DNA of 64,000 bases from Chelativorans sp. Marseille-P2723 (GTDB taxonomy: Bacteria > Pseudomonadota > Alphaproteobacteria > Rhizobiales > Rhizobiaceae), in the NCBI RefSeq assembly GCF_902809845.1, contig NZ_CADDWI010000008.1, positions 992,001 to 1,056,000 on the forward strand. Reading direction: 5' to 3'. The notes under the pieces are model-generated. The model was not told where the DNA came from. It saw nothing but the letters and a program-made list of their open reading frames with translations, and did no database searches. The first letter of the stretch is position 1; each line of letters opens with the position of its first letter. A program made the position numbers and the translations under genes. Shown here piece by piece: positions 28,327 through 37,600 of the stretch.

Positions 28327-29511
28327 ATGCTACGCCGGACGAGCGAGCACGGCGCCGAGGAAATGGCGCTGACCGGGATACCGGAGGGCTTCAGCCGCGT
28401 TTGTCTCGGCGGTATCGGGGTGGAGATCCCGGAAAGCTTCATCTGCAATGAAGAACTGGTCGAAACCTATAATGGGTGGGCAGAGGCCGAGAATGCGGCC
28501 CGCGCAGCGCGTGGGGAGGAGCCCGTGCCGCTGTCCAGTGCCGAGTTTATCGTTCAGGCTTCAGGCATCCGACGGCGGCATGTCTACGAGCGTAACGGCA
28601 TTCTCGATCCGGCGCGGATGGCGCCTGTCATCCCGGCGCGTGGCGACGATGAACTTTCCGTAATGGCCGAGTTCGGCCTGGCGGCTGCCAGAAAGGCGCT
28701 GGCTCACGCCAAGCTTGAGCCGAATGAGCTTGATCTTATTATATGCTCTGCCGCTCATCACCAGCGGCCATATCCTGCGATCGCCATCGAGATCCAGCAG
28801 GCACTTGGTGCGCAAGGGGCCGCTTTCGACATGGGGCTTGGCTGTTCCTCTGCGCTTGCAGGGTTGCATGTAGCAAGCAACATGGTGCGTTCCGGCGCCT
28901 ATCGGCGCGTATTGGTGGTTACTCCGGAACTGATCACCGCTCACCTCAATTTCCGCGACCGCCAGACGCACTTCATCTTCGGTGATGCTTCGGTGGCTGC
29001 CATTGTGGAAGCAATGGACCATAGGGAGGAGCGGCAGGGGCGCTTTGAAGTCGTCGACACCCGGCTGTGGACGCGGTTTTCCAATGGCATCCGCACCAAT
29101 TTCGGCTTTCTGAGCCGTCTTGCCCAGGAAGATCCCTACCTGCTTGAGATGCACGGGAACATGATCAAGCAGATGGGCAACAAGGTCTTCAAGGAAGTGA
29201 CCCTGGCGGGGCACCAGTTCATCGTTGAATTTCTCGGCGAGTACGACCATACCCCGCATTCCATGCGCCGCTTCTGGCTGCACCAGGCCAATGCCCGCAT
29301 GAATGCGATGATCCTGAAGCTCGCTTTAGGGGAGAATGTGGATCACGACCGCGCGCCCCTCGTGCTCGACCGGTTGGGCAATACGGCTGCGGCAGGCGCG
29401 ATCATTGCGCTTGCCGAGAATCATGAGGATATGAAGGCCGGCGAACTCGGCCTGCTTTGTGCCTTCGGCGCCGGATACTCTATCGGCGGTGCGCTTTTGA
29501 AAATGATGTGA
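28327..29511 (+). CDS. Beta-ketoacyl-ACP synthase III-like protein
   Basis: A 394-residue thiolase-fold condensing enzyme of the FabH family, about 70 residues longer than housekeeping FabH, with most of the extra length in the N-terminal half. The catalytic triad is visible: Cys in GLGCSSALAGLH (about 174), His in FWLHQANARM (about 319) and Asn in RLGNTAAAGAI (about 353). ASGIRRRHVYE is the usual motif near the CoA site. It probably starts or extends an acyl chain. The extra length suggests a specialised substrate rather than the main fatty-acid starter reaction. Confidence 0.85.
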   Translation: MLRRTSEHGAEEMALTGIPEGFSRVCLGGIGVEIPESFICNEELVETYNGWAEAENAARAARGEEPVPLSSAEFIVQASGIRRRHVYERNGILDPARMAPVIPARGDDELSVMAEFGLAAARKALAHAKLEPNELDLIICSAAHHQRPYPAIAIEIQQALGAQGAAFDMGLGCSSALAGLHVASNMVRSGAYRRVLVVTPELITAHLNFRDRQTHFIFGDASVAAIVEAMDHREERQGRFEVVDTRLWTRFSNGIRTNFGFLSRLAQEDPYLLEMHGNMIKQMGNKVFKEVTLAGHQFIVEFLGEYDHTPHSMRRFWLHQANARMNAMILKLALGENVDHDRAPLVLDRLGNTAAAGAIIALAENHEDMKAGELGLLCAFGAGYSIGGALLKMM

Positions 29512-29514
29512 GGT

Positions 29515-29829
29515 CTATTCCTCTTCCTCCTCGGGATCGAGCAGCCGTGTCGCACGCCAGCGAGTCAGCACCGCGTTGATCTGATCGACGACGAAGTAGC
29601 GTGCCGCGTCCCGATCGTAGCCTTCGGCAAGCAGCTCGTCATAGTCGCTGTGCTCATGCCGCACATGGGAGACAGTCGCAATCCACACCGCGACGGAGGC
29701 GGGGAGCGTCCGCAGCTTCCGGTCATTGGCAAGGGTCTGGATCCTTTGAATATCCGCATATGGAGCCTGGGGCAGCAGCGTCGTCAGCGCCTTGTTCACC
29801 GCCCTCCGGCGCTGTGTCGAAACCTTCAT
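29515..29829 (-). CDS. DUF2293 domain protein
   Basis: A 104-residue protein matching the pattern of DUF2293: LPQAPYADIQRIQTLAN, a central VWIATVSHVRHEHSDYDELLAEGYDRDAAR, and an ending that leads to LTRWR and a run of glutamates. The function is unknown. The ATG at 29829 has AGGA six bases upstream; a longer reading to 29919 would run into the control region of the divergent ArsR gene. It converges on the FabH-like gene with only three bases between stops. Confidence 0.75.
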   Translation of the reverse strand: MKVSTQRRRAVNKALTTLLPQAPYADIQRIQTLANDRKLRTLPASVAVWIATVSHVRHEHSDYDELLAEGYDRDAARYFVVDQINAVLTRWRATRLLDPEEEEE

Positions 29830-29930
29830 CAATGTTCCTGCTCTATGTTTCTTGCTCTCAGGGTTGCTCGCCGTTCGGACAGATGGGGGATGCCTGCGGG
29901 CAGGCTTGTCAAAAGTCAAAGTCTTATATA

Positions 29931-29948
29931 AACATATCTTTATATGTT
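29931..29948. promoter_or_regulatory. Palindromic operator upstream of the ArsR-methyltransferase and metF genes
   Basis: AACATAT-CTTT-ATATGTT is a perfect inverted repeat with seven-base arms, 13 bases before the ATG at 29962. A -10-like TATAAA (29927-29932) overlaps its left arm and a weak -35 (TTGTCA, 29906-29911) lies upstream. This is the position expected for a repressor site. The ArsR-type protein encoded just downstream is the natural candidate to bind it. Confidence 0.6.
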
Positions 29949-29961
29949 ATTGGAGGGCCGT

Positions 29962-30978
29962 ATGCTGAAAAGGCCGATGGCGGCGCTGGGGTTCGAGGCG
30001 GCGGTGGATATTTTGAAGGCGGCAGCCGAGCCCAGCCGCTTGCGCATTCTCGTTCTGCTTGCACATACGGACTTGACGGTCTCCGACCTGACCGAGGTTC
30101 TTAGCCAATCGCAGCCCCGCGTCTCGCGGCATTTGAAGCTTTTGCTCGATGCCGGCCTCATCGCCCGTTACCAGGAAGGTTCCTGGGCCTTCTTCCGGCT
30201 TTGCGATGCGGAGGCGTCGCGGAGCTTCATCGACAGTGTGGTGGGTCGCGTGGACAAGGCAGATCCCCTGGTCGGACGCGATCTGGAGCGGCTGGAGGCG
30301 ATCAAGCGCCGCCGGCAGGAGAGAGCTGCTGAATACTTCAGCAAAAATGCAGCAAGCTGGGATCAGATCCGCTCGTTGCACGTACCCGATGCGGCGGTAG
30401 AGGCGGCACTCAAACATTTGATTGGCGAGGAAAACTTTGAGTCGATGGTGGATCTTGGCACGGGAACAGGCCGTCTGCTTGAGCTCTTCTCTCCTCTCTA
30501 CCGGCGCGGGGTAGGGGTCGACCTTTCGCGCGAGATGCTGACAGTGGCGCGCGCCAATCTGGAGCGGGCCGGTGTCACCAATGCGCAGGTGCGGCTCGGC
30601 GATATTTACGCGCCACCCGTGGATCGCGACGCGCACGATCTCGTCACGATCCATCAGGTGCTGCATTATCTGGATGAGCCTGCCGTTGCGATCAGTGAGG
30701 CAGCGCGGCTGCTGCGCCCCGGCGGGCGGCTGGTGGTGGTGGATTTCGCCCCGCATGACCATGAGTTCCTGCGTGAGGAACACGCACATTTGCGCCTTGG
30801 CTTTTCCGACCAGCAGATCGCCGAATGGCTTGTTGAGGCCGAGCTAGAACTTGTTGAAACGCAAGCCTTCGCTCCTGAGGGCGAGGCGGCGGAAGGACTG
30901 ACGGTAAAATTGTGGCTTGCTCGGGACCCACGTATTGCGCTTGCAAGCGCGGGTGCCGAAACGAAGGAGATTGCTTGA
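29962..30978 (+). CDS. ArsR-family regulator fused to SAM-dependent methyltransferase
   Basis: A 338-residue two-domain protein. The N-terminal winged helix (about 10-100) has AAAEPSRLRILVLLAH, DLTEVLSQSQPRVSRHLKLL and YQEGSWAFFRL, as in ArsR/SmtB proteins, but no metal-binding CVC. The C-terminal class I methyltransferase domain (about 140-310) has motif I VDLGTGTGRLLELF and the later VVDFAPHDHEFLREEHAH. The ATG at 29962 follows TGGAGG. Its stop overlaps the metF start as TGATG. The pairing suggests a regulator that senses S-adenosyl compounds through the methyltransferase fold and controls methionine synthesis; SahR/SamR-type ArsR regulators of this cycle are known in proteobacteria. Sensing is inferred. 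Confidence 0.85.
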   Translation: MLKRPMAALGFEAAVDILKAAAEPSRLRILVLLAHTDLTVSDLTEVLSQSQPRVSRHLKLLLDAGLIARYQEGSWAFFRLCDAEASRSFIDSVVGRVDKADPLVGRDLERLEAIKRRRQERAAEYFSKNAASWDQIRSLHVPDAAVEAALKHLIGEENFESMVDLGTGTGRLLELFSPLYRRGVGVDLSREMLTVARANLERAGVTNAQVRLGDIYAPPVDRDAHDLVTIHQVLHYLDEPAVAISEAARLLRPGGRLVVVDFAPHDHEFLREEHAHLRLGFSDQQIAEWLVEAELELVETQAFAPEGEAAEGLTVKLWLARDPRIALASAGAETKEIA

Positions 30979-31886
30979 TGCCCTACAAATTCTCCAGACG
31001 ACCGGAGGCGGGCGCAAAGATCCGCGTTTCCTTCGAGTTCTTCCCACCCAAGACAGATGAGATGGCACAAAGGCTCTGGAATACGGTCGAGCGGTTGTCG
31101 CCCCTTCAGCCCGCCTTTGTCTCTGTTACATATGGTGCGGGCGGATCGACGCGGGAGCGCACCCAGCATACCGTTCGCCGCGTACTGGATGAGACTAGCG
31201 TTACACCGGCTGCGCATCTGACCTGCGTTGACGCGGATAAAGATGAGGTAAACGCAGTCATCGCCGATTTCCTGGAGATGGGCGTCAGGCGTTTCGTGGC
31301 GTTGCGCGGCGATCCAGCCGAAGGGGTCGGCGCGGCCTACAAACCTCACCCGGACGGCTACATGAACGCTGCGGAACTGGTAGGCGCGCTTGCGCGGCAT
31401 AGAGACCTCGACATTTCCGTTGCCGCCTATCCAGAAAAACATCCAGAAAGCCCCGATTTCGCTACCGACATCGAGATGTTGAAACGGAAGGTGGATAATG
31501 GCGCCACGCGCGCGATCACCCAGTTCTTCTTCGACAATGATGTCTACGAGCGCTATGTGGAGCGGGTACGCCGTGCAGGCATCTACGTGCCTATCGTCCC
31601 GGGCATTTTGCCCGTGCATAATTTCACGCAGATGGTGCGCTTTGCCAGCCGCTGCGGCGCCCATGTGCCGCAATGGCTTGCGGAGCGTTTCCAGGGTCTT
31701 GAGAGCGATCCTGCCACCCACCAACTCGTTGCCGCGGCGGTGGCTGCCGAACAGGTGCTGGATCTTGTTGAGCGCGGTGTGGAGGATTTTCATTTTTACA
31801 CCATGAACCGCGCCGATCTTTCCTTTGCGATATGCCACCTGATCGGCATCCGCCCCCAAGGCGAAGCGGAAGCAAGGGCAGCATAG
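30978..31886 (+). CDS. metF: 5,10-methylenetetrahydrofolate reductase
   Basis: A 302-residue FAD-dependent TIM-barrel enzyme that reduces methylenetetrahydrofolate to methyl-THF for methionine synthesis. Motifs include SFEFFPPKTDEM near the start, VSVTYGAGGSTRERT, AAHLTCV, FVALRGDP, YPEKHPESPD, and ITQFFFDNDVY, all typical of MetF. Length is normal. The ATG at 30978 shares a base with the stop of the ArsR-methyltransferase gene, so the two are coupled; the in-frame ATG or alternative start further upstream lies in that gene. Confidence 0.95.
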   Translation: MPYKFSRRPEAGAKIRVSFEFFPPKTDEMAQRLWNTVERLSPLQPAFVSVTYGAGGSTRERTQHTVRRVLDETSVTPAAHLTCVDADKDEVNAVIADFLEMGVRRFVALRGDPAEGVGAAYKPHPDGYMNAAELVGALARHRDLDISVAAYPEKHPESPDFATDIEMLKRKVDNGATRAITQFFFDNDVYERYVERVRRAGIYVPIVPGILPVHNFTQMVRFASRCGAHVPQWLAERFQGLESDPATHQLVAAAVAAEQVLDLVERGVEDFHFYTMNRADLSFAICHLIGIRPQGEAEARAA

Positions 31887-31895
31887 CCAATAAAA

Positions 31896-31920
31896 AAGGC
31901 CGGGGTTTCTACCCGGCCTT
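31896..31920. terminator. Bidirectional terminator between metF and the 28-residue ORF
   Basis: AAGGCCGGG pairs with CCCGGCCTT around a short loop. On the plus strand it is followed by CCTG and is only moderate for metF. On the minus strand it is followed by TTTTTTATT, an excellent terminator for a transcript coming from the small ORF at 31946-32032. Confidence 0.85.
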
Positions 31921-31945
31921 CCTGTTAACCTGCTTCCTTGGGTAT

Positions 31946-32032
31946 TTAAGGCAGTACCCCCACTATGAGGGCGCCCACGAACGCGAATGACGCCAGAATC
32001 ACCAGCAAATTGATTGGCCGTGTCAGTCCCAT
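31946..32032 (-). CDS. Putative 28-residue membrane protein
   Basis: A very short ORF that starts with ATG at 32032 and ends with TAA. The product begins MGLTRPINLL, continues with a fully hydrophobic stretch (about residues 8-28) rich in Val, Leu, Ile, Ala and Phe, and ends GVLP: a single membrane helix with one N-terminal arginine. AAGGAGG (complement of 32042-32048) lies nine bases before the ATG. A promoter-like pair lies just upstream, and a strong minus-strand terminator begins 25 bases after the stop, so it looks like a complete one-gene transcript. I do not know a function. It converges on metF and is 231 bases downstream of the lysozyme-like gene. Confidence 0.6.
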   Translation of the reverse strand: MGLTRPINLLVILASFAFVGALIVGVLP

Positions 32033-32065
32033 GGGCGAAAGCCTCCTTTCAACATGGTGATGCGG

Positions 32066-32093
32066 ATTCTATGGACTGGGGGGCTAAAGCCAA
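32066..32093 (-). promoter_or_regulatory. Promoter-like sequence for the 28-residue ORF
   Basis: On the minus strand TTGGCT (complement of 32088-32093) and TAGAAT (complement of 32066-32071) are separated by 16 bases. Transcription would start near 32058, giving a leader of about 26 bases with the Shine-Dalgarno inside it. Confidence 0.45.
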
Positions 32094-32263
32094 GGATTTT
32101 TTTTCCTGCGACTGGGAAACGGGCGAAATCCGTTCGTCTTTTGCGGCCTCTACCGCTTGAATTCTCTGGAAAAACCGCAGCGATTCACATTGTGTTAAAA
32201 TGATGAAGCTTGGCACTTACCAGGGCGCAAATCGAGGTTGCCGGCCTCCACTGCTCACCGGAC

Positions 32264-33052
32264 TCAGCCTGCGTAGGCCCTGAGCCAGCCTTGCCAGGCT
32301 TCGTGGTTGCCGTGAAAAACATTGATGTCGGCGTTTCCATTGATCCCGGGCAGGACGCCCGTACCCGTGTACTGCCAGAAGATCCAGGGATGGTTGCCAT
32401 ATCTCTCGTCCGGATGCCCCGCTACAGAGCGCAACCAGAACGGATAGCCTTTGAAATGTGAAAGGCCATTGTCATCGAAGAAATCGATGGAGGTGTAGAT
32501 GATGGGGCGTTTGCCATAATGCCGCTCCACCGTATCGAGGAAAACCTGCATCTCTGCGCGCACCGTCTCGGGAGAGGGGCGCAGCCTGCATGTGGGGGAG
32601 AGATGGTTCCACTCCATGTCAAGGACCGGGGGCAGGGCATGGCGCTCACGCGGCACGTGCTGGATGAACCAGCGCGCTTGTTCGATGGCTGGCCGGCAGA
32701 AGTAAAAAAAGTGGTAAGCGCCACGCGGAATGCCTGCTGCATGCGCGCCCATCCAGTTGCGCTGGAAGAAGTCGTCGATCATATCTCCACCTTCGGTAGC
32801 TTTGATGAAGGCGAAGGCAATGCCGCTTCTCCGCAACGCGCCCCAGTCGATCTCGCCCTGATATTTGGAGACGTCCGTCCCGTGGATCGGGTATTGCCAT
32901 GGCGGCCGCCCATCCCATGCATGCGGCTTGGTATCATCAAAGCGCGGACCTATCTCGGGAGCCGAAGCCGGTAACAGGTCGGAGAAATCGTAGCTGCCGC
33001 CGGCGCAGGCGAAAAGCGGCAGGGTCAACATCAGGACCATAAGCAATCGCAT
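32264..33052 (-). CDS. GH25-family lysozyme-like lipoprotein
   Basis: A 262-residue exported protein with a lipoprotein signal (hydrophobic start, then LPLFAC with Cys16 as the lipid site). The GH25 (Chalaropsis-type muramidase) domain covers about residues 55-262: HGTDVSKYQGEIDWGAL, FAFIKATEGGDMID, PRGAYHFFYFC, and the catalytic acidic pair in VLDMEWNHL, then WIFWQYTGTG. It would cut the glycan strands of peptidoglycan from an anchored position. It stands alone, divergent from the beta-lactamase-fold gene. Confidence 0.9.
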   Translation of the reverse strand: MRLLMVLMLTLPLFACAGGSYDFSDLLPASAPEIGPRFDDTKPHAWDGRPPWQYPIHGTDVSKYQGEIDWGALRRSGIAFAFIKATEGGDMIDDFFQRNWMGAHAAGIPRGAYHFFYFCRPAIEQARWFIQHVPRERHALPPVLDMEWNHLSPTCRLRPSPETVRAEMQVFLDTVERHYGKRPIIYTSIDFFDDNGLSHFKGYPFWLRSVAGHPDERYGNHPWIFWQYTGTGVLPGINGNADINVFHGNHEAWQGWLRAYAG

Positions 33053-33114
33053 AAACGAAGAGCCTCCCCCCGAACGAATCGTTATCCTGTGCCCAGCTTT
33101 GCAGGGGATAGGTG

Positions 33115-34512
33115 ATGCGTGCTGTTCTTTCCATCATCAAATGGCTGACTGGACTGGTGGTCGTGGCATTGCTCGGCGCCATGCTCTGGCTGTGGCAAGC
33201 GCCGCCGGATCTCATCCGATTAGGCGCAAGCTATGCGGCCAAGACGGTATGCTCAAATGCCCTGATCGCGGCGCGCGATCCGCAGTCTGTACTGGCGGCC
33301 GACGTGCAGGCGCCGGGCCATCCTCTTTTGAAGCTCATGCGCGTGAGCCTGAATGAAGACGAGGGAGTCGCGCGGGCGGGACTATTCGGCTTCATGGGCC
33401 GCGGGGTTGCGGTTTTTCGAAACGGGATCGGTTGCGCGGCCGTGCCAGACAACGATGTGGAAACGGCCCGGATGGCGCATCTTTCCTTTCCGCAGATGTT
33501 GCCGAAAGACGGTCACTGGCCAGACGGCGAAGAGGCTGAAACCTTGGACAGTACGGCTCTTGCTGCCGTGCTTGACGATCCGGCCATTATTGGGCCGGGC
33601 ATGCGGGCATTGGTTATCGTGCGTGATGGCAGCATCATTGGGGAGCGTTTCGCCCCCGGAATATCTCCCGATCAGCCGCTACTTGGCTGGTCTATGACGA
33701 AGACCGTCAACGTCGCGATACTCGGAACGGTGGTTGGAGCAGGCAAGCTGTCACTCGATACACGCAATCTGTTTGCCGAATGGAAGAACGATGGGCGCAA
33801 CGAGATCACGGTCGAGCATCTTGCCGCACTTACGAGCGGTCTTGCCTTCAACGAGGATTACGGCGGCGTGACGGATGTCACGCGCATGCTCTATCTGGAG
33901 CCGGACATGGCAGCCTTTGCGGCAGACAAGCCGCTGCTCTACGAACCGGGATCGCATTTTTCCTATTCAAGCGGGTCGAGCGTGATGCTGTCGCGCGTGT
34001 GGCAGAACGTCTTAGCGGATGAACGGGAAGCTCTTGAGTGGCCCTATCGCACGCTTTTTCGTCCGCTCGGAATGCGGACCGCGATGTTTGAAGCGGATGC
34101 GCGCGGCACCTATGCCGGCTCTTCCTATCTTTACGCCTCGGCGCACGACTGGGCGCGTTTCGGCCAGCTTCTGCTGCAGGATGGCATGTGGCAGGGAAAG
34201 CGCATTCTGCCGGAGGGATGGGTCGACTGGATGCGCAGCCCCACCGTCGCCTCCGGCGGTGAATATGGCCATGGCTTGTGGATGCAGGGCCCGCGAGTGA
34301 CAACCCCGCCGGACCGGCATCAGGATGAAGGCTTTGCCCTGCCGGAGGATGCATATTGGCTGATCGGACATGACGGACAGACGATGACGATCATTCCTTC
34401 GTTGAGGCTCGTCATATTGCGCATGGGCCTGACGCCCACCATTCTGGGCTACAAGCCTCAGGCGCTTGTGGAGGCGGTCGTCAGGGTGCTTCAAGCAGAA
34501 GAAAACGGATGA
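33115..34512 (+). CDS. Membrane-anchored serine hydrolase, class C beta-lactamase fold
   Basis: A 465-residue protein. An uncleaved N-terminal membrane helix (about 5-28) anchors a periplasmic domain. The beta-lactamase/esterase fold starts near residue 150; the nucleophile is in LGWSMTKTVNVAILG (SxxK), the Tyr motif in FSYSSGSSVML, and a third motif lies in HDGQT near the C-terminus. Family members include class C lactamases, DD-peptidases and esterases; without a canonical KTG I cannot choose, though the esterase/oligomer-hydrolase type is likely. The ATG at 33115 has AGGGGATAGG upstream. Confidence 0.82.
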   Translation: MRAVLSIIKWLTGLVVVALLGAMLWLWQAPPDLIRLGASYAAKTVCSNALIAARDPQSVLAADVQAPGHPLLKLMRVSLNEDEGVARAGLFGFMGRGVAVFRNGIGCAAVPDNDVETARMAHLSFPQMLPKDGHWPDGEEAETLDSTALAAVLDDPAIIGPGMRALVIVRDGSIIGERFAPGISPDQPLLGWSMTKTVNVAILGTVVGAGKLSLDTRNLFAEWKNDGRNEITVEHLAALTSGLAFNEDYGGVTDVTRMLYLEPDMAAFAADKPLLYEPGSHFSYSSGSSVMLSRVWQNVLADEREALEWPYRTLFRPLGMRTAMFEADARGTYAGSSYLYASAHDWARFGQLLLQDGMWQGKRILPEGWVDWMRSPTVASGGEYGHGLWMQGPRVTTPPDRHQDEGFALPEDAYWLIGHDGQTMTIIPSLRLVILRMGLTPTILGYKPQALVEAVVRVLQAEENG

Positions 34513-34620
34513 GCTTAAAGCGATATGTGAGTCAAAATAATGCCTTGCCGCGCACAGCTTGCAATCCGATTCAGGTCCTTCATGCAACGCTTGCAGAGCA
34601 AGGCCGTTCAGAACCCAGCA

Positions 34621-37600
34621 TCATGCCCGTCCGAATCCGCCGCCTGTGGGCGTGGTGACGATTACAGCTTCGCCAGCCTCCACCGCGGTCTGATCGCAAG
34701 CCTTCAGCGTCTCGATCTGTCCGTCCTTGCGCCTTACTTCAGTGCGCCCCGGTTCGCCGTCGCCGCCTGCTTCTATCCCTCGCGGCGGTATAGACCGGTG
34801 CGAGGAGAGGATGGCGCACTGCATTGTCTCAAGAAAGCGTATCGTGCGCTGCGTGCCGTCTCCCGCATTCCATTTGCCTTTTCCGCCCGAACCTTCGCGC
34901 AAGTGGAAGTCCTCCAGCAGAACGGGAAAGCGCAGTTCGAGAATCTCCGGATCCGTTAGGCGCGAATTGGTCATGTGGGTGTGCACGCCTGACGTTCCGT
35001 GAAAGCCGCGCCCGTCATTCATGCGGCCGGCGGGAGAGCCTGAGCAAATAGTCTCGTAATACTGGTACTTGTCATTGCCGAAGGTGAGATTATTCATCGT
35101 GCCCTGAGAGTTGGCGAGCGCACCCATGGCCGCAAACAGCGCATTTGTCACATGCTGGGAGGTCTCCACATTGCCGGCTACCACAGCCGCTGGATAGGAC
35201 GGGCGCAGCATCGAGCCTTCCGGGATGATGATTTTGATGGGCCGGAGACATCCGGCATTCATGGGGATCGAGCCTTCAACCATGACGCGAAAGGCGTAGA
35301 GCACCGCGGCGCGCGTCACCGGCTCGGGCGCGTTGAAATTGTTCTTCATGACAGGCGAGGTGCCGGTGAAATCCACCACGGCCTCGCGCTTCTGCCGGTC
35401 GACGCTGATCTTGACCCGGATCACCTGGCCGGTATCCGTGTGGTATTCGCAGGAGGCTTCGTCCGGCAGCCGCTCCAGAACGCCGCGCACCGCCTCGGCC
35501 GCATTGTCCTGCACATGGTTCATATAGGCTTCGACGACATCGAGCCCGAACTCTGCCACCATCTTCCTCAATTCGGCCACGCCTTTTTCATTGGCAGCGA
35601 TCTGCGCCTTAAGATCGGCGATGTTCTGATGAGGATTGCGGGCAGGGTAGGGATGGTCGGTCAGAAGATCGTACAGTTCTTTCTCTCGGAAGCGGCCGCG
35701 GCTAATGATGCGGAAATTGTCGAAGAGCACGCCTTCCTCGTCTACCGTCGTGGCCAGCGGCGTCATAGAACCGGGCGCCGTGCCCCCTACGTCTGCATGA
35801 TGCCCGCGCGAAGCGACCCAGAAGAGGATCTGCCTGCCACCGTAGTCGAAGACCGGCGTCACCACCGTGATGTCGGGCAGATGCGTGCCGCCATTGTAGG
35901 GGGCGTTGAGCGCAAAGACGTCGCCCGGGTGGATATCCCCTTCGTTAAGGCGGATAATCGTCTCAACCGAACGATCCATAGAGCCCAGATGTACAGGCAT
36001 GTGCGGGGCATTCGCCACCAACGCCCCATTGCGGTCGAAGACGGCGCAGGAAAAGTCGAGCCGCTCCTTGATATTGACTGAGTAGGCCGTGTTCTGCAGC
36101 GTTACGCCCATCTGCTCGGCGATGGACATGAAGAGGTTGTTGAAGACCTCAAGCATGACCGGATCGGCATGAGTACCGATGGCGGCCTGCCGCTGCTTCT
36201 TCTCCACCCGCCGCATCAGAACGTGGTCATGCGCGGTGATTTCCGCTTGCCAGCCGGGCTCCACCACAATCGTCTGGTTGTTCTCGATGATGAGCGCCGG
36301 CCCCGCGACGCGCGCACCCGGAACGAGTGCTTTCCGCAGATACACGCCTGCATCGCGCCATTCGCCTTCGCAGTAGATCCGGCGCGTGACGTGAGGTTCT
36401 GGCGTATTGTCGTTAAGCGGGAGCGGTGGCTCCTCGGGCGCAGCGCTTTTTGCGTCCACGCCTTCCACATTCACCGCCTCCACGATGATTGGCTTGTCGT
36501 CGTAGATAAAGCCAAATTGCGCCTGGTGTGCCGCTTCAAAAGCTTTCCTAGCCTCGTCGATCGAGCGCTCGAACGGCACCGACAGCGTGGTGTCCGTTCC
36601 TTCATAGCGGATTTCGAGCCGTTTACCCCAGCGGATCGCGTCCGCCGTCACCCCCTGAACTTCCAACTCCCGGCCGACCTCGTCCCGCAACTCGCATATG
36701 AGAGTTTCAATCTGGGGCAGGGCGTCTTGCGCAAGCGGCTGGATCAACGCCTTCTGGCGTGAGGCGGAGACGGATGCAAGCCCGATCCCATAGGCGGACA
36801 ACAGACCGGAAAGGGGATGGATCAGCACCGACTCCATACCGAGGGCATCGGCCACCAGGCAGGCATGCTGCCCACCTGCGCCTCCAAAGCAATTAAGCAG
36901 ATAGCGTGTGACGTCATGCCCGCGCTGCACCGAAATCTTCTTGATCGCATTCGCCATGTTTTCCACGGCGATGGTGATGAACCCCTCAGCCACAGCCTCG
37001 GGGCTGCGCCCGTCCCCGATCTGGTTTGCAAGTTCAGTGAAGCGCTTGCGCGCGATGTCAAGATCGAGCGGCAGGTTCTGCTCCGGGCCGAAAATATTGG
37101 GAAAGAAGTCCGGCTGCAGCTTCCCCAACATCATATTGGCGTCCGTTACGGCAAGCGGGCCGCCGCGCCGGTAGCAGGCGGGGCCAGGATCAGCGCCTGC
37201 TGAATCGGGTCCAACCTGCTGCCGCCCATCTTCATAATGCAGGACCGAACCGCCGCCGGCCGCCACGGTGTGGATTCGCATCATCGGCGCCCGGATGCGC
37301 ACGCCCGCAACTTCCGTATCGAAAGCGCGCTCATAATCCCCGTCATAATGGGCAACGTCGGTTGAGGTGCCGCCCATATCGAAGCCGATCACCTTATGGA
37401 AGCCCGCTAGACGCGCCGTCTCCGCCATGCCTACCACGCCCCCGGCAGGACCCGAAAGGATGGCATCCTTGCCCCGAAACATGTGAGCGGCGGTAAGGCC
37501 GCCAGAGGACATCATGAACTTGAGGCGCGGGAAGCCTGTGCTGCTGCTTTCCGGCCGGATCCCCAATTCTCCTGCCACCAGACGCACATAGCGGGCCAGG

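Follow-up and report, generated by a model that had tools for sequence, protein, structure and literature searches.

CydX, a small subunit of cytochrome bd, is encoded together with the oxidase genes. The same protein is mentioned in PMC10117765, where SEP6 (sORF6) of S. meliloti is described as a product of fewer than 30 residues with a predicted membrane helix and conservation in Hyphomicrobiales, its translation being supported by Ribo-seq and by Western blotting of the tagged protein, which was recovered mainly in the P100 pellet. YohP of E. coli, with 27 residues, is a further small membrane protein, and one for which a starvation-linked theme is described (PMC12719787). On the regulatory side, PhaR (AniA) is a regulator which senses polyhydroxybutyrate (PHB), and binding motifs have been published for S. 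meliloti (WNWD2NYGCRNYGCRNH2WNW, PMC12542648) and for B. diazoefficiens (TGCRNYGCASMA, PMC6201568). Here we describe a family of small genes whose promoters contain the palindrome YGCRNYGCR, the core of both published PhaR/AniA sites; its occurrence in the promoters of this family is new in this analysis.

The family was followed from a single locus in Chelativorans sp. Marseille-P2723 (GCF_902809845.1, NZ_CADDWI010000008.1:992,001-1,056,000, forward strand), a stretch of 64,000 nt which we refer to as the window. The first-pass annotation had proposed an overlooked transcription unit for a 28-residue membrane protein opposite metF, and the promoter-like boxes, the Shine-Dalgarno sequence and the short frame all lie where it had placed them on the minus strand (Table 1). 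The strong hairpin that it reported beyond the stop codon starts ~25 bases downstream and folds at -19.5 kcal/mol (z -4.48), more stable than every one of 200 shuffled sequences. On the plus strand, 3' of metF, the same stem gives -18.7 (z -3.43) and runs into TTCCTG, so the better T run belongs to the small gene's side, as had been noted, and the fold scores on both strands are consistent, for the window, with a terminator shared by the two genes. The product also bore out its description as one hydrophobic helix with one positive residue near the N-terminus, with a best 19-residue Kyte-Doolittle mean of 2.85 (2.52 and 2.94 in two further members, hydropathy being the only score used). The promoter by itself is within chance, as two promoter-like sites were found in 2 kb against 0.8 +/- 1.0 in shuffled sequences, and the scan of these 2 kb did not report the hairpin.

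Table 1. The small gene, its signals and its neighbours in the window (position 1 is the first base of the 64,000 nt stretch).
Feature	Positions	Strand	Evidence
28-codon gene encoding MGLTRPINLLVILASFAFVGALIVGVLP, with one predicted membrane helix (start ATG at 32032-32030, stop ending at 31946)	31946..32032	-	ORF list, homologues, dN/dS, hydropathy
Shine-Dalgarno AAGGAGG, nine bases 5' of the ATG	32042..32048	-	Sequence; GGAG kept in family loci
Promoter TTGGCT-N16-TAGAAT (-35 box 32093-32088, -10 box 32071-32066, spacer 16 bases)	32066..32093	-	Promoter scan and family footprint
Remnant TCGCA where most relatives have the PhaR-type operator YGCRNYGCR; right half lost	32107..32111	-	Upstream sequence comparison
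Intrinsic-terminator-like hairpin (31923-31893), then TTTTTTATT	31893..31923	-	Folding; same stem directly behind metF on the plus strand
metF, methylenetetrahydrofolate reductase, convergent neighbour	30912..31886	+	TIGR00676, 354 bits against a cut-off of 293.7; also PF02219
GH25 family protein, upstream neighbour	32264..33052	-	PF01183
Hydantoinase/oxoprolinase, 1210 residues	34621-38253	-	PF02538, PF01968, PF05378

The gene is distributed widely in Hyphomicrobiales. Members of the window's GTDB family mostly have one copy, convergent with metF. Used as a query, the 28-residue peptide matched 156 of the 199 family genomes at E ≤ 1, and a profile made from an alignment of 49 distinct peptides raised this number to 166 at E ≤ 0.01 (154 of the 186 good genomes), mostly once each; the family genomes lacking a match include some of 1.1-2.0 Mb. 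Across the order, the profile matched 212 of 297 genomes at E ≤ 1, chance matches included, whilst at E ≤ 1e-4 the matches listed contained 79 genomes from 19 other families of the order. In a sample of the class, two of 385 genomes matched at E ≤ 1e-3, the window's own and one of the 384 others, so chance matches at that level are rare; four members of the order named in the class listing gave no profile match. A degenerate pattern recovered 65 stretches in named genomes, 56 from Rhizobium and nine from entries named "Rhizobiales bacterium", with R. johnstonii 3841 amongst the matches.

The single class match outside the window's genome comes from a member of another alphaproteobacterial order (L138, 1.5 Mb), and is a 32-residue frame, MNLRKGTDVLSSSLNALLVGAAFAFIAAMLFI, at ~1500-1598 on the minus strand with AGGAGG ahead of it. 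It is flanked by an ATPase_gene1 (atpI-type) frame and an ATP synthase A chain frame, both on the opposite strand.

The frame itself was compared between the window and 140 family loci, a set which was picked for matching and gives no estimate of prevalence. Over the first 23 codons none of the 141 frames is interrupted, the start codon is ATG in 140 and TTG in one, GGAG precedes the start in 138, and the peptides have 28 residues in 89 loci, 25 in 44 and 27 in eight. Codon-position entropies are 0.85, 0.33 and 1.41, and the bias towards synonymous changes, which the first-pass annotation had named as a check alongside retention of the frame and Shine-Dalgarno sequence, is strong, with a dN/dS of 0.137 over 2644 sequence pairs. 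Frame and ribosome-binding signal are kept in close and distant relatives, beside metF within the family. This is a genuine protein gene under selection with its own signals; the unit as a whole exceeds chance because of its conservation, as seen in the profile matches and the low dN/dS, and that conservation, together with purifying selection, gives good support to the proposal of a real, overlooked gene for a small membrane protein. Amongst the 49 distinct peptides, F16 is invariant and M1, N8, A14 and F18 are conserved in at least 90%. The peptide has no match in NCBIfam or Pfam, a weak hit to stannin in the latter (E 0.1, 13.2 bits against a cut-off of 25) being rejected, and a search of one paper collection for the peptide letters and related wording returned no description of the family.

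Of the 141 family loci, 137 contain metF, convergent with the small gene in every case and separated from it by less than 400 bases in 129; the examined stretches of the other four contained no metF at E ≤ 1e-20, one of them lying where its contig ends. Beyond the family this neighbourhood is only partly kept. We also inspected 20 loci, each of up to 12 kb and selected for strong matches, from other families of the order. In seven of them metF lies within ~6 kb, convergent in six of these, and in four it is both convergent and within 400 bases. A large frame common to six of the 20 is read as metH from the homocysteine S-methyltransferase domain (PF02574) of the L141 copy, the sole copy scanned, and large frames akin to the window's hydantoinase/oxoprolinase lie near the small gene in L139, L149 and L158, the domain being confirmed for L139. 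On the upstream side, a DMT transporter and a lytic murein transglycosylase separate the small gene from GH25 in S. meliloti Ak57 (CP090106), and in other layouts inspected a PLP decarboxylase (PF02784) is also found in between; the window is without this block, which leaves GH25 adjacent. The GH25 gene was discarded as a candidate partner, as other genes intervene in the remaining layouts inspected. In Sinorhizobium, inspection by eye found no comparable hairpin just downstream of the small gene.

The promoter region of all 141 loci is summarised by a footprint: TG.CGCA.TGCAGCA....TT..GCTTG, a spacer, TA.A.T, AGGAGG and the ATG, with the -35 (CTTG) and -10 (TA.A.T) elements prominent. Strict matches to YGCRNYGCR are present at -100 to -55 in 106 of 141 loci (114 when one outer mismatch is allowed; 62 of 92 after dereplication), ~80 bases before the start and directly upstream of the -35 box, against a background per 45-base window of 4.1% (632/15342) and 5.5% (31/564). 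When positions from -300 to +150 were divided into 15-base bins, 110 matches fell into -90 to -76, the next largest bin, inside the frame, held 15, and the other occupied upstream bins held between one and eight. In other families of the order the site lies at -92 to -79 in 10 of 20 loci, all nine Sinorhizobium genomes searched have both gene and operator, and three Rhizobium loci that were inspected encode the peptide MGLTQSLNVLLVSAAFAFVLSMLFI with the operator. PhaR control is predicted from this site in most relatives. The window's own promoter is without the palindrome, the best match within 240 bases having six of the eight specified bases and only the left half-site standing at the usual place.

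Within the family, phaR was found in 174 and phaC in 169 of 199 genomes, and the window's genome has both. Among the 141 loci, 132 come from genomes with PhaR, and 104 of these have the strict operator; 27 of the 131 other than the window's lack it, eight of the 27 having a one-mismatch site. Both genomes with phaC but no PhaR match (G031 and G191, 96% and 79% complete) carry the operator, and none of the seven genomes with neither PhaR nor phaC does, the small gene being present; five PhaR-negatives (G181, G182, G184, G189 and G191) were assigned by subtraction. The absence of the operator from PhaR-less genomes (61 of 76 with PhaR, none of five without) was at one point taken as support for PhaR and then dropped, since the seven genomes fall into a single clade when metF is used for the tree (a quick one, in which 47 of 133 inner branches have good support) and their coincident losses provide no independent support. 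Three PhaR-bearing neighbours of that clade also lack the operator, so its loss seems to have been a single event that preceded the loss of PhaR. Across the whole tree, the label "operator with PhaR" changes 19 times against a shuffled mean of 28.8, and the site thus seems to have been lost repeatedly. Twenty family genomes, counted by subtraction, have PhaR but no detected small gene, which together with the retention of the gene where PhaR and phaC are missing implies that PHB alone does not account for its function.

The reading that we prefer, and consider likely, is that of a genuine, vertically inherited gene for an inner-membrane peptide of 25-28 residues, with its own promoter and, in most of the family, predicted PhaR control. 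It would be expressed from its own short mRNA, comprising a 5' leader of ~25-30 bases downstream of the promoter, the strong Shine-Dalgarno sequence, the small frame and the terminator. Its composition, with Arg5 ahead of the helix, suggests membrane insertion with the N-terminus inside, and the peptide may act via helix-helix contact with a membrane protein through Asn8, Ala14, Phe16 and Phe18. Since the palindrome upstream of the -35 box matches the PhaR/AniA operator, the gene is predicted, in most of the family, to be expressed in step with PHB stores, most likely through PhaR repression which would be relieved as PHB titrates the regulator away, in the manner of phasin genes; that the effect is repression is a guess, as is the "regulatory" role that was first suggested for the peptide. 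In the window the operator is degenerate, so the gene there is probably no longer under PhaR, though phaR and phaC are kept. More broadly, and only tentatively, we propose that across much of the order PhaR controls a dedicated peptide of 25-28 residues that conveys carbon-storage status to the inner membrane, by tuning a respiratory or transport complex, for instance, and that in some lineages, including the window's strain, it has been freed from PhaR. The promoter of the gene predicts that carbon storage and the membrane are directly connected, and a product of this size would easily be overlooked by the proteomics that defined the PhaR regulon.

Rather unlikely, in our estimate, but the most serious of the alternatives, is that the peptide serves constitutively as an accessory subunit in a complex of the inner membrane (respiratory or transporter), as CydX does for cytochrome bd, with the palindrome only tuning its level or binding a regulator other than PhaR. 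Such a subunit would fit the presence of the gene in most family genomes, mostly in single copy, its retention with a Shine-Dalgarno sequence where PhaR is missing and the conservation of specific residues (F16; M1, N8, A14 and F18), and published PhaR-site genes elsewhere include cyoA, sdhC and nuoA1; however, in the layouts inspected nothing follows the gene on its strand before metF, which places it outside any operon with a complex, and the peptide has no relative amongst PDB sequences.

We regard it as very improbable that the transcript is a small RNA in which the frame is incidental or secondary. The dN/dS is lowest in the small gene's frame, the other forward frames giving 1.20 and 2.88 and the reverse strand 1.00, 0.36 and 3.22 (the 0.36 being next lowest), the frame is kept in all 141 loci and the Shine-Dalgarno sequence in 138, the leader and frame together fold no better than shuffled sequences (z 0.41), and Rfam gave no match at gathering score, all of which weigh against what a short, single-gene intergenic unit with a terminator-like hairpin might otherwise suggest. 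Type I toxins are of similarly small size and hydrophobicity. That the peptide, which resembles them in both respects, is the hydrophobic toxin of a type I toxin-antitoxin pair is about equally improbable, given mostly one copy per genome in a fixed place family-wide, a strong Shine-Dalgarno sequence and a short leader. Short frames are common, with 105 ORFs of at least 20 aa overlapping 29000-35500, but order-wide conservation and purifying selection are decisive against a chance ORF between metF and its neighbour, to which we attach practically no weight.

In S. meliloti Ak57 the ortholog is a 25-residue peptide, MGLTHSLNVLMISAAFAFVAVMLFV, encoded in the interval that separates metF from the DMT transporter gene, and the operator CGCAGTGCA lies at -80 of its start. 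The gene is kept across much of the order, including Rhizobium and Sinorhizobium, yet no feature is listed for it in the PLSDB gene table of Ak57; the table describes itself as incomplete, which limits "not annotated" to the table. The Ak57 record itself (CP090106.1) is labelled pSymB, spans 3.72 Mb, has metF and ettA, and is probably the chromosome, mislabelled.

Amongst the known systems, CydX is likewise a tiny membrane protein, whereas the small gene stands alone beside metF. YohP resembles its product in size, as a small membrane protein and in the starvation-linked theme, but comes from another bacterial class and is likened by description, without a claim of sequence relation, PhaR regulation not being reported in the available text of PMC12719787. 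With the PhaR/AniA regulon of S. meliloti and B. diazoefficiens (phaP1, phaP2, phaZ and mmgR) the small gene shares the same palindrome core beside the -35 box and the single-gene unit; several regulon promoters were tested by gel shift or footprint (PMC12542648, PMC6201568), whereas its own site is predicted from sequence and is absent from Table 3 of PMC12542648, whose scan was of regions upstream of annotated genes. SEP6 and the family are alike in having fewer than 30 residues, a helix and a spread through Hyphomicrobiales (the 25-residue Ak57 ortholog and the order-wide matches). The main text of PMC10117765 does not contain "metF". The S. meliloti ortholog may plausibly be SEP6 itself and, if the two are the same peptide, translation and membrane location would already be supplied for the family.
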